Assembly (NCBI RefSeq): GCF_023716485.1
Contig: NZ_CP092418.1
Location: 4,124,501 to 4,188,500, forward strand
From: Microbulbifer variabilis
GTDB lineage: Bacteria > Pseudomonadota > Gammaproteobacteria > Pseudomonadales > Cellvibrionaceae
Length of the DNA stretch: 64,000 nt
Reading direction: 5' to 3'
This document shows positions 2,128 through 8,257 of the stretch, in pieces. The notes under the pieces were generated by a model. It was not told the origin of the DNA. It made no database searches and worked only from the letters and a program-made list of their open reading frames with translations. The first letter of the stretch is position 1; each line of letters opens with the position of its first letter. The translations under genes and the position numbers were made by a program.

Positions 2128-2571
2128 ATGTCGTCTACTACTCTTCGCAGTGCGCTTCTCGCACTCGTCATGGCCTCGACGTCCGCCCTGGCAGCAGATC
2201 ACGAAGTTAAGATGCTGAACCAGGGCAAGGACGGCATGATGACTTTCGAACCCGCGTTCCTAAACGTTGCAGTGGGCGATACTGTCACCTTCCTGCCCAC
2301 CGATATGGCACACAACAGCCGTTCCGTACTCTCCCCAGCCGAGGGCGACAGTTGGAATGGCAGCATGGGTGAGAAAGTCAGTGTGACCTTGAATAAGGAA
2401 GGCGTTTACCTGTACCAGTGCGATCCGCACCTGCCCTTGGGCATGGTCGGTGTAATTCAGGTAGGCCAGGCCGGCAACCTGGAAGATGCCAAGAAACACG
2501 CTCAAGGAATGAGTGAACGTATCGCCGTCAACAAGGAGCGCCTCAGCCAGTACCTTGACCTAATTAAATAA
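2128..2571 (+). CDS. Pseudoazurin (blue copper electron carrier)
   Basis: 147-residue periplasmic type 1 copper protein. Residues 1-23 form a signal peptide ending SALA-A. The mature part has the pseudoazurin pattern EVKMLNQG-K-GMMTFEPAFLNVAVGDTV. The four copper ligands are all present: H62 (MAHNS), C98, H101 and M106 (QCDPHLPLGM), followed by the helical C-terminal tail typical of pseudoazurins. In denitrifiers such proteins pass electrons to nitrite or nitrous oxide reductase, but no such reductase gene is in the window. The gene sits behind an FNR-type box and 13 bases ahead of an ODP-family gene, suggesting a low-oxygen role. Confidence 0.93.
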   Translation: MSSTTLRSALLALVMASTSALAADHEVKMLNQGKDGMMTFEPAFLNVAVGDTVTFLPTDMAHNSRSVLSPAEGDSWNGSMGEKVSVTLNKEGVYLYQCDPHLPLGMVGVIQVGQAGNLEDAKKHAQGMSERIAVNKERLSQYLDLIK

Positions 2572-2584
2572 GAGAGGCCGCGGC

Positions 2585-3382
2585 GTGGACATTTTATTTG
2601 AGCAAGGCCCTCACCTGGTTGCGCGTTTCTGCGATCTGGTTAAAGAACAGAATGGCAGCGATGGAGTGCAGGCCAACCAGTTTGTGATTCGCCGCGGCAC
2701 CCAAGGTGCGCTGATTGATCCCGGCGGTGATCTCACCTACACACCCCTAACCATTGAACTCAGCCGCCACCTGAACCTGAGCGATCTGGAATATATCCTG
2801 GCCTCGCACCAGGACCCGGACATCATTGCCTCACTGCCACGCTGGATGCTGCACTCGCGCTGCAAGGTAGCGGTATCCAAACTGTGGTCGCGCTTCCTGC
2901 CCCACCTAGTGTCTGGCTTTGTCGCCTCACGTGCCGGTAGTGAACGTTGGCAGGACCGTATCATTCCCATCAGTGACAAGGGCGAGGTGCTGCCTTTTGC
3001 CGACAGCGAAATCTGGGCCCTGCCCGCACACTTTATGCACTCCTGCGGCAACTTCAGTTTCTACGATCCAGTTAGCCGCATCCTGTTTTCCGGTGACGTG
3101 GGCGCCTCTCTCGGTGGAGAGGAGGGCGAAGTCATCGATTTTGATGCGCATATTCCATCCATGGAAGGTTTCCACCAGCGCTATATGGGAGGCAACTGGG
3201 CCTGCCGTCTGTGGGTGAAAATGGTGCGAGAACTGAACCCAGCCATGATTGTGCCTCAACACGGCGGGTATTTTGCCTCTGAGGAAGTTAAGGGAGGCTT
3301 CCTGAGCTGGTTGGAGCGATTGGAATGTGGACCCGATCTGCTGCGACATCAGGACTATCGCTTGCCGCTGAGGAAACCCTAA
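2585..3382 (+). CDS. ODP-family diiron metallo-beta-lactamase-fold protein
   Basis: 265 residues with a metallo-beta-lactamase fold of the flavodiiron/ODP type, but lacking the flavodoxin domain of true flavodiiron proteins. The diiron ligand set can be followed: H75, D77 and D79 (HQDPD), H152 (MHSCGNF), D171 (FSGDVGASL) and H226 (PQHGG). ODP proteins bind O2 at the diiron centre and serve as oxygen sensors or scavengers. The gene starts with GTG at 2585, 13 bases after the pseudoazurin stop, and is almost certainly co-transcribed with it from the FNR-type promoter. There is no signal peptide, so it is cytoplasmic. Confidence 0.85.
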   Translation: MDILFEQGPHLVARFCDLVKEQNGSDGVQANQFVIRRGTQGALIDPGGDLTYTPLTIELSRHLNLSDLEYILASHQDPDIIASLPRWMLHSRCKVAVSKLWSRFLPHLVSGFVASRAGSERWQDRIIPISDKGEVLPFADSEIWALPAHFMHSCGNFSFYDPVSRILFSGDVGASLGGEEGEVIDFDAHIPSMEGFHQRYMGGNWACRLWVKMVRELNPAMIVPQHGGYFASEEVKGGFLSWLERLECGPDLLRHQDYRLPLRKP

Positions 3383-3559
3383 AGACCAGTCTAAAGGACA
3401 GTCTTTACAAGCGATAACCCTGTAGGCTCCGAATCAATACAGGCATAAAACCAAGGGAGAGCGGGACGCTTTCCCTTAACCTCCTCCACCCTCCCGCTGT
3501 GCTTGCACCCCCTGCTGCCCACACATACACTGACCGGCATACTTCTCCTGGGCTGCTTT

Positions 3560-3898
3560 ATGTATATTGCCTACCTTCGCACCTTGCTGCTGATACTCCT
3601 GCTGGCCTTTGCCGGCCTGGCATCGGCCGTGCCCTGTGCGGAACCTGCAGATATGCTGAGCATGGAAAGCAGCGAACAGGGCCACTGCGAAGCGGATAAA
3701 GCCGATGATTGCCACAGTGAGCACCGCGGTGACTGTGGTATCGAATGCGGCTGCTGCCTGGGATTGAGCAATAGCCTCGCCGTAATCTCCGCCAATATCC
3801 CGAATTTTTCGCGGCCAATTTCCCTGGCAACTGCCCACACAGTATTTAAACCTTCCCCCGACCCGGAAAGCACCCTGCGGCCTCCTATTGCCACCTGA
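3560..3898 (+). CDS. Small Cys/His-rich exported protein, probably metal-related
   Basis: 112 residues from the ATG at 3560; a longer TTG-started form at 3503 would bury the signal peptide. Residues 1-23 (LLLILLLAFAGLASA) are a clear signal peptide. The mature part is rich in Cys and His (CAEP, GHCEADKADDCHSEHRGDCG, ECGCC), with a CxCC cluster, suggesting metal binding. I do not recognise a named family. It lies just upstream of a DUF411 protein, a multicopper oxidase and CopB genes in the same direction, so a periplasmic copper-binding role is a reasonable inference. No clear ribosome site precedes the ATG, which lowers confidence in the exact start. Confidence 0.6.
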   Translation: MYIAYLRTLLLILLLAFAGLASAVPCAEPADMLSMESSEQGHCEADKADDCHSEHRGDCGIECGCCLGLSNSLAVISANIPNFSRPISLATAHTVFKPSPDPESTLRPPIAT

Positions 3899-4013
3899 GC
3901 CTCGGCTCCAGCAGTAAACTTCGCCGATAAATCTTTTTTGCCCGCCACTAGCTGCACCTATGCTGCGCTGACGATGTGGTGGGTCAGTTGATATGAATGA
4001 CAGGAGTAATTCC

Positions 4014-4505
4014 ATGTACCGATCTTTTTTAGCCGCAATTGCCGCGCTTGTTACCACATTAGCCCTCAGTGCTTGTGCCGAACCCACCGAGCCCAAAGAA
4101 CCTCAAGCGCAGAACTTAACGACCTATAAATCCGCTACCTGTGGCTGCTGCAAAGTTTGGGTGGACCACGCTCGCAACAGCGGCTTCAAAGTGGTGGCAA
4201 AGGATGTCGATGACCTCAACGGCGTCAAAAAACAGCACGGAATCGAACCCCGCTACCAGTCTTGCCACACCAGTGTGTCCAAGGAAGGCTATGTTTTCGA
4301 AGGGCATGTGCCAGCCAAGCTGATTCAGCAATTTTTGCAAAGTCCGCCTAAGGGTGCGCTGGGGCTGGCTGTGCCCGGTATGCCTCTCGGAAGCCCTGGC
4401 ATGGAGATGGGCGATCGCTTTACCCCCTACCAGGTAATGCAGTTAAACAAGGACGGCAGCAGCGTGGTTTATACAGAAATCAACGCGGCCGGAGAACAGT
4501 TCTGA
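4014..4505 (+). CDS. DUF411 metal-binding lipoprotein
   Basis: 163 residues from the ATG at 4014, chosen because AGGAG at 4002-4006 sits 7 bases ahead of it; an earlier ATG at 3993 lacks such a site. A lipoprotein signal ends at LALSAC. The body is a DUF411 domain: TTYKSATCGCCKVW, VDDLNGVKKQHGI, SCHTSVSKEGYVFEGHVPA, then GLAVPGMPLGSPGMEM. The CxCC, the second Cys-His and the Met-rich loop are likely copper ligands. DUF411 proteins are regularly found in copper and silver resistance clusters. The multicopper oxidase gene follows after 9 bases, so the two are co-transcribed. Confidence 0.9.
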   Translation: MYRSFLAAIAALVTTLALSACAEPTEPKEPQAQNLTTYKSATCGCCKVWVDHARNSGFKVVAKDVDDLNGVKKQHGIEPRYQSCHTSVSKEGYVFEGHVPAKLIQQFLQSPPKGALGLAVPGMPLGSPGMEMGDRFTPYQVMQLNKDGSSVVYTEINAAGEQF

Positions 4506-4514
4506 GGACTGTCG

Positions 4515-6263
4515 ATGACAAAACCTCCGCGGTGCGGCTCGGTTTCGCGCCGCACCTTTGTAACCGGAATCAGCGCCGGCATGGCCCTCCTGGGCCTGCC
4601 CGGCTCCCCTACCCCCGCCAGGGCGCGAGTCCCGCCTCCCACGACTTTAACTGGCGAGAATTTCTCCCTGCAGGTAGACCAAAGGGCAGTCAACCTGACC
4701 GGACAACCCCGCAACGCAATTTCAGTTAACGATTCTATTCCCGGCCCAATCCTGCACTGGCACGAGGGGCAAACTGTCACTCTCAATGTCCTTAACCAAT
4801 TAGATAAAAACACTTCGATTCACTGGTATGGCATCAGGGTGCCCAATCCTATGAATGGTGTACCAGGGCTCAATTTCTCCGGTATTAGGCCCGGGGAAAA
4901 TTTTCGATACCGCTTTAAAGTCACACAAAGCGGAACTTACTGGTATCACAGTCACTCCGGCTTCCAGAGGCAGCAGGGACTCTACGGTGCTATCGTCATC
5001 AATCCAGCTGGGGGAGAGCCGGTGACCTATGACCGGGACTATGTAGTGTTGCTCTCCGATTGGAGCGATGAATCCCCCCAGCGGATTTATTCAAACCTGA
5101 AGAAAGATGGCCACTATTACAACCGGCGCCGCCACCGCACCACCACAGATCTCTGGCGAGATGTACGCGCGAAAGGCATAGAGCAAACCTGGCGTGAACG
5201 ACACCCATGGAACTTCGCAGGCATGTCTGATCGAGATGTGTCTGATGTCACAGGCTACACCTACAGCTACCTGATCAATGGACAAACTCCGGAAGACAAT
5301 TGGACTGCCCTATTTACCCCAGGTGAGATAGTACGGCTGCGTTTTATCAACGCCTCTGCCATGACAATCTTCGACCTACGCATTCCCGATCTGGATATGA
5401 CCGTGGTGACTGCTGATGGCCAGAATATTCAGCCGGTGAGAGTAGATGAATTCCGCCTAGGTACTGGGGAAACCTACGATGTGGTAGTTAGGCCCAGTGG
5501 CGACAGAGCCTACACCCTTTTTGCCCAGGCGATCGATCGCGGCGGTTACGCTCGCGGTACCTTAACGCCCGCTCAGAGTCTTTCTGCCGAAGTTCCCCCC
5601 ATGGATCCAATCCCTATTCTCGATAAGCGCGATATGGGATTCACCCGTGCCAGTGGTGCTAGAGCTGCTGATAGACAGTCCACTGCAGAAGAAGGCAATG
5701 CCAAACTGGCCCCCGCTGGCCTGGGAAGCCATAGCCCCATCATCCACCAGCCAACAGAAAAAGGCCATGGCGTAGCCCTGCGCGCGCTCGCGCCCCAAAA
5801 TGGAATGGATGATCCCGGTGTTGGACTCCGTGAACACCAGCAGCGCTACAACCGCCGCATCCTAACCTACAGGGATCTTCGCAGTCTCACACCATCATTA
5901 GACCAGCGCCAACCGCAGCGAGAACTACAACTACATCTCACCGGTAATCCAGCTCGTTACCTATGGTCCATTGACGGTGTTAAATATAAAAACGCCACAC
6001 CAATATTATTGGCTTATGGCGAGCGTCTACGTATCACTCTGGTGAACGACACCCTACTCACCCAGCCCATGCACCTGCACGGTTTATGGAGTGAGTTGGA
6101 AACTGGTGACGGACAGTATCTACCACGCAAGCACACGGTGATGGTGCAGCCCGGTGCCAAGATCAGTTACCTGGTAAATGCCGATAACCGGGGGCGCTGG
6201 GCATTACACTGCCAAATGCTTTATCGCACATACGGTATTTTCCGAGAGGTGCGCGTGGTATGA
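4515..6263 (+). CDS. pcoA: CopA/PcoA-type multicopper oxidase with many copper ligands lost
   Basis: 582 residues with a Tat signal (SRRTFVTG at 11-18) and the three-cupredoxin layout of CopA/PcoA periplasmic copper oxidases. Two of the four copper-ligand motifs are intact or nearly so: YHSHSG (H145, H147) and HLH (H520, H522). The others are eroded: HWH is HWY (Y105), the type 1 histidine of HPxHLH is Q517, and HCHxxxH is HCQxxxR (H565, C566, Q567, R571), with the axial Met replaced by Ile at 575. The type 1 site therefore keeps only its Cys. The frame is open and overall length is normal, so this is not simple decay. A novel HWH at 81-83 replaces the usual RWR. It overlaps copB by 4 bases. 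Oxidase activity is doubtful; a copper-binding or structural role is possible. Confidence 0.92.
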   Translation: MTKPPRCGSVSRRTFVTGISAGMALLGLPGSPTPARARVPPPTTLTGENFSLQVDQRAVNLTGQPRNAISVNDSIPGPILHWHEGQTVTLNVLNQLDKNTSIHWYGIRVPNPMNGVPGLNFSGIRPGENFRYRFKVTQSGTYWYHSHSGFQRQQGLYGAIVINPAGGEPVTYDRDYVVLLSDWSDESPQRIYSNLKKDGHYYNRRRHRTTTDLWRDVRAKGIEQTWRERHPWNFAGMSDRDVSDVTGYTYSYLINGQTPEDNWTALFTPGEIVRLRFINASAMTIFDLRIPDLDMTVVTADGQNIQPVRVDEFRLGTGETYDVVVRPSGDRAYTLFAQAIDRGGYARGTLTPAQSLSAEVPPMDPIPILDKRDMGFTRASGARAADRQSTAEEGNAKLAPAGLGSHSPIIHQPTEKGHGVALRALAPQNGMDDPGVGLREHQQRYNRRILTYRDLRSLTPSLDQRQPQRELQLHLTGNPARYLWSIDGVKYKNATPILLAYGERLRITLVNDTLLTQPMHLHGLWSELETGDGQYLPRKHTVMVQPGAKISYLVNADNRGRWALHCQMLYRTYGIFREVRVV

Positions 6264-7054
6264 GGCGCACCCTCTGTACCAAAGCGGCAGTGATAATAGT
6301 TGTTACCCTGTGCTTGCAACTGGGTTTTCAAGCAGCTAAAGCGCAAAATCGGGAAGACCAGCACCACAGCTTCCAAGCCCCCTCAGAAGGTTCAGTCGCT
6401 GGAGAGGACAATGGTATGGCCGGGGAGGGGGACAAGCCGGTAGCCAAACTCAGCCTTGACCAATTCGAACGGCGCGGTATGAACGGCGCGGCAATCGAAG
6501 GCGATTTCAGTTATGGAGATGACGTCAATAAAGTAGTGCTGGAAGTAGACTTTGAGCGGGGAGGAGGAGAAACGGAAAAAAATGAGCGATGGCTGGTCTA
6601 CAGCCGATCCATTTCCAAAGATTGGAATTTCCTCGCCGGCTTCCGACACGACCTACAGCGGGAAACTACCAGCCGCAATTGGCTGGCGATTGGGCTGGTT
6701 GGAGAAACCCCTTACTCATTAGAAATGGATGCAGTGCTATTTCTGGGAAGGAACGGCAGTACAGCTTTTCGTCTGGAAGGGGAATATGATGCAAAGCTCG
6801 CAGAAAAAGTGAGCCTTATTCCGCGCCTGGAGCTGAATTTCTTTGGCCAAAATGATGAAATCGCTGGCAGTGGCAGCGGATTGTCTCAAATAGAAATAGG
6901 CTTGCGCCTACTCTACGAAATTCACCCTAAATTTTCCCCCTATATCGGCGTTCACCATGAACGAGTTGTGGGCAATGCCGCAGATTTTGCCCGTGAAGAA
7001 GGGGAAAAGGTATATAGCACCGTATGGGTTGTCGGTTTTCGCGCCTGGTTTTAG
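6260..7054 (+). CDS. copB: CopB-family outer-membrane copper resistance protein
   Basis: 264 residues of the CopB/PcoB family (PF05275). After a signal peptide (cleavage near AAKA) comes a short acidic and His-containing linker, then a beta-barrel: alternating strands such as FSYGDDVNKVVLEVDFE, VYSRSISKDWNFLAGFRHD, RNWLAIGLVGETPYSLEMDA, and a terminal strand ending in aromatic F. The characteristic TPY, GLVGE and RLLYEI-PKFSPYIG motifs are all present. CopB proteins sit in the outer membrane and act with CopA in copper tolerance. The start codon overlaps the oxidase stop codon (ATGA), so translation is coupled. Confidence 0.93.
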   Translation: MRRTLCTKAAVIIVVTLCLQLGFQAAKAQNREDQHHSFQAPSEGSVAGEDNGMAGEGDKPVAKLSLDQFERRGMNGAAIEGDFSYGDDVNKVVLEVDFERGGGETEKNERWLVYSRSISKDWNFLAGFRHDLQRETTSRNWLAIGLVGETPYSLEMDAVLFLGRNGSTAFRLEGEYDAKLAEKVSLIPRLELNFFGQNDEIAGSGSGLSQIEIGLRLLYEIHPKFSPYIGVHHERVVGNAADFAREEGEKVYSTVWVVGFRAWF

Positions 7055-7345: not shown

Positions 7346-8257
7346 GTGTCGTACATAAACACTTCAGCTCTTGACTTTATTCACTCACCATATCTGCAGC
7401 AAGATTTCTCCTCATTGAACCTCATAGGTCGCACCAAGCCTATATGGGGTAAACGGGAGTCCAGACGATACGCAAGTGAAATTCTTCTACGTAAAGTATC
7501 AATAACTCCAGCGATTACTATTTCCTTACTAATGGGGATGCTGGCTATCGAAGGACAATCCCAAGAGGATTTACATCATGGCCTTCAGTATCACTCCACA
7601 TCTGGAAGTAACAATGATGCAACCCTAGGAGAAGACAAACCCATCGCCAAGCTCAGCCTTGATCAATTTGAATTACAAGGTAATAACGGAGCCACCATTG
7701 AGGGGGACATCAGCTATGGTACAGACCAAAGCAAGCTATCCGCAGAAGTAGACTACGAGCGCTCCAACGGGGAGACCGAGGAGAATGAGCTATGGGGCAT
7801 TTACAGCCACGCAGTTTCTGCTAATTGGAATATTCTCGCAGGAATTCGTCATGATTTTTACCTGGAGAATACCAGCCGCAATTGGTTTGCAATTGGTATT
7901 ATTGGCGAGACCCCCTACTCATTTGAAATGGACGCTGTATTTTTCCTTGGTAGAAGCGGCAGCACTGCCCTTCGCATAGAAGGAGTTTATACATTTAAAC
8001 TCTCAGAAAAGTTCAGTTTAGCACCCCGTGCAGAATTTGATTTTTTTGGGCAAAATGACAAAAATTCAGACGGAGGATCTGGTCTATCTGAAATAGAAAT
8101 TGGCATACGTTTACGCTATGAACTTCATCCGAAATTCTCCCCTTATATTGGCATACATCAATATCGCAATATCGGAAAAACTGCAGACTTTGAACGCGAA
8201 GAGGGAGAAAAAGTATACGATACCGTGTGGGTTCTGGGGTTTCGAGCTTGGTTATAA
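7346..8257 (+). CDS. Second CopB paralogue with an N-terminal extension
   Basis: 303 residues; residues 90 onward are a clear paralogue of the CopB just upstream (for example DKPIAKLSLDQFE, GETPYSFEMDAVFFLGR, ELHPKFSPYIG, TVWVLGFRAWL). The GTG start at 7346 has AAGGG six bases ahead. This leaves about 50 residues before the hydrophobic signal-like segment (TISLLMGMLAIEG), where the first CopB has only a few; no other usable start codon lies between. The copy is more AT-rich than its neighbour. It may be an old tandem duplicate whose original start has been lost. The 291 bases separating the two genes hold no recognisable terminator. Confidence 0.85.
   Translation: MSYINTSALDFIHSPYLQQDFSSLNLIGRTKPIWGKRESRRYASEILLRKVSITPAITISLLMGMLAIEGQSQEDLHHGLQYHSTSGSNNDATLGEDKPIAKLSLDQFELQGNNGATIEGDISYGTDQSKLSAEVDYERSNGETEENELWGIYSHAVSANWNILAGIRHDFYLENTSRNWFAIGIIGETPYSFEMDAVFFLGRSGSTALRIEGVYTFKLSEKFSLAPRAEFDFFGQNDKNSDGGSGLSEIEIGIRLRYELHPKFSPYIGIHQYRNIGKTADFEREEGEKVYDTVWVLGFRAWL

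Follow-up and report, generated by a model that had tools for sequence, protein, structure and literature searches.

The gene at positions 4515–6263 of a 64,000-nucleotide stretch of Microbulbifer variabilis DNA (GCF_023716485.1, NZ_CP092418.1 positions 4,124,501–4,188,500, forward strand, from a genome of a single 4.86 Mb contig; hereafter the window, to whose positions coordinates refer unless another contig or locus is named) encodes a degenerate homologue of the copper resistance oxidase CopA/PcoA. We put at roughly 55% the probability that this protein is a catalytically dead CopA, kept as a structural and translational partner of CopB, the product of the next gene, while another oxidase performs the chemistry. 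The 582-residue open reading frame (ORF) fills 4515–6263 exactly, in agreement with the full-length gene of the initial annotation, and scores 723.5 bits against the TIGR01480 profile copper_res_A (CopA/PcoA; cut-off 478.95). This score and its orthologous position beside a DUF411 gene and copB, with the flanking genes radA and MBL362 common to the canonical genome G018, bear out the descent from CopA that had been proposed. Scores against the equivalog profiles for CueO (NF008205, 86.7 bits, cut-off 525) and SufI/FtsP (NF008135, 39.2 bits, cut-off 581) are far lower. The predicted twin-arginine (Tat) signal is likewise borne out, with R12, R13, T14 and F15 invariant in ten aligned clade members. 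Three multicopper oxidase Pfam domains, the predicted model and its structural matches all indicate a fold of three cupredoxin domains. The model, built from an alignment of 110 sequences, is confident (predicted local distance difference test, pLDDT, 91.3; predicted template modelling score 0.90; an earlier alignment of ten clade members gave a pLDDT of 36.3), although this is no proof that the altered sites fold unchanged, since the alignment is dominated by normal CopA. Alignment confirmed the residues initially reported at the copper sites: four of the ten copper histidines are replaced (Y105, Q517, Q567 and R571) and isoleucine (I575) occupies the axial methionine column. Of the type 1 ligands, two histidines and a cysteine, only C566 is left, Q517 and R571 standing in the histidine positions, and the trinuclear site keeps six of its eight histidines, with Y105 and Q567 in place of the others. 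Of the histidines named here as type 2 or type 3 ligands, some are documented as such in passages of PMC2944330, and the others are assigned presumptively. Judged by the lost ligands, the protein probably has no multicopper oxidase chemistry, as the initial annotation had supposed.

The same substitutions recur in related species. Among 48 Microbulbifer genomes, eight carry a degenerate CopA, always with an open frame, 32 a canonical-type CopA and eight neither copA nor copB. In all eight degenerate copies the first type 1 histidine and the last histidine of the HCH motif are glutamine and the second type 1 histidine is arginine or glutamine; further losses are piecemeal (H147 in 5/8; H565, the cysteine, which becomes serine, and the axial methionine in 3/8 each; H145 and H105 in 2/8 each), so that H103, H520 and H522 are the sole copper histidines retained throughout. 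As the state is common to eight genomes, a sequencing or assembly artefact was ruled out. Two protein database searches, started from the query and from one degenerate relative, listed 155 distinct proteins among the best 120 matches each out of 5.8 billion sequences; 146 keep all ten histidines and the cysteine and nine are degenerate. These nine are among the best 120 matches listed, the seven named ones all being Microbulbifer, and the second search added no further degenerate member among its best 120. In a class-wide sample, 70 CopA genes were scored of 80 that exceeded the cut-off besides the query's own (the ten left unscored include G471, with stops in frame), and 68 of them keep all 11 ligands. 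Outside the clade, all 11 ligands are thus retained by the 146 listed proteins, by 68/70 class genes and by 32/33 non-Microbulbifer loci (from a set of 37 in which L068 has no ligand column), the three others not being fully scorable. The two remaining class genes, L209 and L229, have an in-frame stop ahead of the C-terminal copper motifs, which limited their scoring to four ligands.

In an rpoB tree of 46 of the 48 genomes (G034 and G038, with no rpoB match, were left out), the eight degenerate-CopA genomes and G030 form one clade with an ultrafast bootstrap of 100, and a larger clade, again at 100, adds G039 and G041. The eight copies also group together in a copA tree of 24 genomes (support 100). 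Gene order in the clade runs radA, pseudoazurin, ODP, a Cys/His-rich ORF, DUF411, copA, copB, MBL362, and in G018 radA, DUF411, copA, copB, MBL362. Taken together, the trees and the shared gene order identify the degenerate gene as the orthologue of normal CopA, altered in place and with no spare duplicate. A paralogue alongside a normal copy was ruled out, the other multicopper oxidases of the eight genomes being at most 40% identical over parts of their length. Going by sequence, the protein is a pseudoenzyme formed in place from CopA/PcoA.

The losses fall selectively on copper-related residues. We aligned the query with 83 of the 155 database proteins and 26 of the 37 loci, hand-picked for spread. 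In 102 canonical sequences, 109 columns reach a conservation of at least 95%, and all eight clade rows keep 78 of these unchanged. Change is far more frequent in the His, Met and Cys columns (14/19) than in the others (17/90; p = 7.6e-6); in nine control octets of canonical sequences, 0/16 were changed in each. The conserved methionines lost in the clade include M479 as well as M514 and M515, which we liken to the Cu(I)-binding methionines of CueO. The aspartate of the DG motif is asparagine in five of the eight rows and is kept in three; passages of two published studies link this motif to the handling of oxygen or protons (PMC2661564, PMC2944330). Compared with 16 of the 32 canonical-type genomes, the eight degenerate proteins have 7–14 methionines against 28–53 and 13–25 histidines against 30–46, and the Met/His-rich insert is gone, leaving a linker of 23–46 residues where canonical proteins have 63–153. 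Because of this depletion and the missing insert, the suggestion that the protein is a copper carrier finds no support, though it might conceivably have one residual metal site. The HWH at residues 81–83, put forward as a new copper site, was rejected for lack of conservation. The query shares it with three database relatives of 94–99% identity, but G031, although 96% identical, has HWR, as does G044, and the other five degenerate and the 16 canonical genomes have RWK or RWR.

Selection on copA in the clade is relaxed yet far from neutral, and purifying selection persists. Separately fitted ratios of nonsynonymous to synonymous change (ω) were 0.128 for the clade and 0.066 for 16 canonical copA genes; neighbouring clade genes gave 0.121 (DUF411), 0.138 (copB), 0.129 (MBL362), 0.093 (pseudoazurin), 0.040 (ODP) and 0.015 (radA). 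In a joint branch model ω was 0.074 for canonical branches, 0.085 for the clade stem and 0.117 for its crown, where ω = 1 was rejected by 711 log-likelihood (lnL) units. Two ratios (0.114 in the clade and 0.074 elsewhere) described the data better than one (2ΔlnL = 31.8), and the higher ω of the query's own lineage (0.145) was not significant (2ΔlnL = 1.4). These data contain the near-identical G029 and G035, and synonymous change approaches saturation among deeper clade members. H103, H520, H522, Q517 and Q567 are invariant in the clade while their codons change synonymously. Retention of glutamine in all eight copies has a probability of 2e-4 per site at ω = 1 and 0.30 at the gene-average ω, and these sites are therefore constrained at least as strongly as the rest of the gene. 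The initial annotation held that the gene would simply be decaying if sister species kept all ligands and selection were relaxed; the sisters instead share the losses, so that this refutation does not apply, although selection is somewhat relaxed.

A candidate for the replacement oxidase exists in the same genomes. The M. variabilis genome encodes a second, intact multicopper oxidase at C1:3871401–3872969, which scores 604.7 bits against the CueO profile. Intact CueO of at least 71% identity, with complete ligand motifs, is present in 8/8 degenerate-CopA genomes and 0/40 other Microbulbifer; a homologue of 41% identity occurs in G042, and in G030 the CueO gene is in pieces with stops. In an order-level sample of 342 genomes, three exceed the CueO cut-off, and these are the three degenerate-CopA genomes included. 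The closest CueO relatives outside the genus are metagenome proteins of up to 65% identity, and the first that carry names belong to Alphaproteobacteria (Sneathiellaceae, Amorphus, Acetobacteraceae, Tistlia, Rhizobium and Hoeflea), which suggests lateral gain; the CueO of the clade was thus probably acquired in this way. CueO has the same fold as degenerate CopA and presumably shares its ancestral chemistry, but in these genomes it is encoded separately and has all its ligand motifs. According to a passage of PMC3548706, CueO and PcoA are mutually exclusive in gammaproteobacteria and linked in one species.

The proposed operon with copB is borne out: the stop codon of copA and the start codon of copB overlap in ATGA at 6260–6263, and the same overlap occurs in G031 and G044; in the other five clade genomes copB, by our reading, seems to begin at a TTG that overlaps the stop codon of copA. 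CopB occurs in 40/48 genomes, and these are precisely the ones with a separate CopA, whether degenerate or canonical; the remaining eight have neither. Within the clade, G030 lacks copA and copB as a block between DUF411 and MBL362 (L147 6069–6170) and retains pseudoazurin, ODP and DUF411. G030, G039 and G041, the clade relatives lacking copAB, are the only three of the 48 genomes with a full-length protein of 702–705 residues that we read as an oxidase–barrel fusion: its oxidase part has complete motifs (HWHG, HSH, HPMHLHG and HCHILYHLESGM) and scores 370–391 bits against TIGR01480, below the cut-off, and its last 170 residues resemble CopB weakly (12–16 bits, cut-off 27). Such a protein recalls the PcoA–PcoB fusions of five Legionella described in a passage of PMC3548706. 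An intact oxidase is thus present throughout the larger clade, as CueO in eight of its eleven genomes and as the fusion in the other three, and from the distribution of copAB and the fusion it follows that the barrel never occurs there without a CopA-like part. In excerpts of the published work, 19 genomes have pcoA without pcoB and none has pcoB without pcoA (PMC3548706), and the N-terminus of PcoB stabilises PcoA, their genes overlapping by four bases (PMC12509749).

Two further genes of the operon retain copper motifs (Table 1). The DUF411 Cys/His/Met motifs and the pseudoazurin CDPHLPLGM are kept in 8/8 clade genomes, so that copper handling is still present in the operon; the first pseudoazurin ligand pattern was matched in 5/8. 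In the clade the pseudoazurin and ODP genes (2128–3382) lie between radA and the copper genes, and pseudoazurin is present in 14/48 Microbulbifer genomes. The ORF at 3503–3898 evolves fast, with 40–86% identity to the other clade genomes. A promoter and terminator scan was uninformative (1 found versus 7.6 expected, and 4 versus 8.1), and a survey for HME-RND found a match in 48/48 genomes, above the cut-off in 46, which did not separate the groups.

Table 1 Features of the copA region (window positions) and loci of the fused protein.
Feature	Position	Strand	Remarks
Pseudoazurin	2128..2571	+	AHN and CDPHLPLGM copper motifs; TIGR02375
ODP-family beta-lactamase-fold protein	2585..3382	+	PF19583
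Small Cys/His-rich ORF, unknown family	3503..3898	+	no Pfam/NCBIfam match
DUF411 protein	3993..4505	+	ends 9 bases upstream of copA; CGCC, SCHT and GMPLGSPGM motifs
Degenerate CopA/PcoA-family multicopper oxidase homologue	4515..6263	+	582 aa, ATG start; ORF, TIGR01480, structure model
R12 R13, twin arginine of Tat-type signal	4548..4553	+	invariant in 10 clade members
HWH 81-83, site proposed initially	4755..4763	+	not conserved in relatives
H103-W-Y105 (canonical HWH)	4821..4829	+	H103 kept, type 3 His lost
N114, replacing Asp of DG motif above trinuclear site	4854..4856	+	Asp in canonical rows
H145-S-H147	4947..4955	+	intact in query, partly lost in 5/8 genomes
Shortened linker at position of canonical Met/His-rich insert	5622..5708	+	28 aa
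Q517-PM-H520-L-H522	6063..6080	+	type 1 His to Gln; H520 and H522 kept
H565-C566-Q567...R571...I575	6207..6239	+	His of types 3 and 1 replaced, likewise axial Met; Cys retained
copB, PcoB-type outer-membrane barrel	6260..7054	+	start codon overlapping copA stop, 4 bases
Second, tandem copB	7346..8257	+	303 aa, 291 bases past the first; two copB in 3/8 (G000, G031, G044)
Fused 702-705 aa protein	L157 6901-9018 (G030); L158 6434-8542 (G041); L159 475-2583 (G039)		

In order to rationalise these observations, we propose that the laterally gained CueO may have taken over periplasmic Cu(I) oxidation, freeing CopA from catalysis, and that the CopA protein would have been retained because CopB needs it. 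CopA would then act much like a scaffold: a periplasmic protein, translationally coupled to CopB, that partners or stabilises the CopB channel of the outer membrane, in line with the scaffold suggested initially. SufI/FtsP, which lacks copper, offers a parallel for such a role among proteins of this fold. Slow decay, in which CopA became redundant through the other oxidase and survives as an idle relic upstream of the coupled copB, seems unlikely to us. The raised ω of the clade would fit it, as would losses that go on in sublineages, with H147, E152, R236 and M479 drifting at site ω of about 0.5–1, and the absence of copA and copB from G030; yet ω stays far under 1 and resembles that of DUF411 and MBL362 in the same genomes, none of the eight copies has a stop codon, the two glutamines and three histidines named above are invariant, and 73 of the 90 conserved columns other than His, Met or Cys are intact in all eight rows.

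We regard as similarly improbable a residual metal protein in which H103 and H520, presumably the type 2 pair, form with H522 a mononuclear copper or zinc site, acting as a buffer or as a donor to CopB. These are the only copper histidines kept in 8/8, and the query retains six of eight trinuclear histidines. The same residues could, however, serve packing, the DG-motif acid is gone in 5/8, methionine and histidine are depleted overall, and SufI is described in a passage of PMC2661564 as keeping two trinuclear histidines while its crystals contain no metal. Least probable by far is an unrelated periplasmic function involving neither copper nor CopB. SufI/FtsP, a copper-free protein of the same fold, is a division protein (PMC2661564, in part). 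Plant SKU5-like proteins offer a further case of this kind. But the degenerate gene lies beside DUF411 and copB in 8/8 genomes, is absent together with copB in G030 and has no FtsP-like score, and it represents a separate loss within the CopA family.

Several observations weigh against a dead CopA serving as CopB partner. Any contact between CopA and CopB is putative, and ligand loss is ongoing under a roughly 1.6-fold relaxed selection. The clade CopB lacks the conserved N-terminal His/Met stretch of canonical genomes (DHVMDH; His and Met counts of this N-terminus come from longest ORFs of differing length), so that the pair may have changed task and the module in its entirety may be on its way out of copper handling. 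Selective loss of His, Met and Cys in CopB was not significant (3/4 columns versus 26/85, p = 0.10). G030 lacks the pair, which can therefore be done without, at least in a genome that has the fusion. CueO alone does not force CopA decay: E. coli with pco plasmids carries both CueO and PcoA. The match of CueO with decay in 8/8 genomes does not amount to eight independent events, because each looks like a single one. As the neighbours of the clade CueO are not copper genes, its copper role is deduced from its family. In the published excerpts, PcoB is the stabilising protein and PcoA the stabilised one, and in Caulobacter PcoB arrived in the outer membrane even when PcoA was missing (PMC12509749); cueO adjoins pcoAB in Halothiobacillus neapolitanus, a matter of gene presence only (PMC3548706).

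Degenerate CopA thus shares with PcoA/CopA the profile family, the Tat-type signal, the operon with DUF411 and copB and the flanks seen in G018, but differs from it in the missing type 1 site, the broken trinuclear site, the lost Met/His-rich insert and the replacement of several conserved methionines. The fuller proposition, that the only PcoA/CopA oxidase of the clade turned in place and without duplication into a copper-free CopB partner in the presence of a laterally gained CueO, we advance tentatively and hold to be somewhat less probable than not. The oxidase and partner roles of PcoA cannot be distinguished in normal PcoA, and the clade would present a natural separation of function, oxidase chemistry being gone and the partner arrangement retained; in close relatives, instead, an oxidase that looks functional is fused to a part resembling a barrel. 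If this is true, the structural role of PcoA towards PcoB is separable from oxidation, and this PcoAB pair perhaps carries no copper at all. The clade would also provide a case in which a single orthologous gene gave rise in place to a pseudoenzyme, and CueO, present in the same genomes, is a plausible trigger. The degenerate genes, which databases annotate as copper resistance oxidase, ought not to be counted as oxidases.
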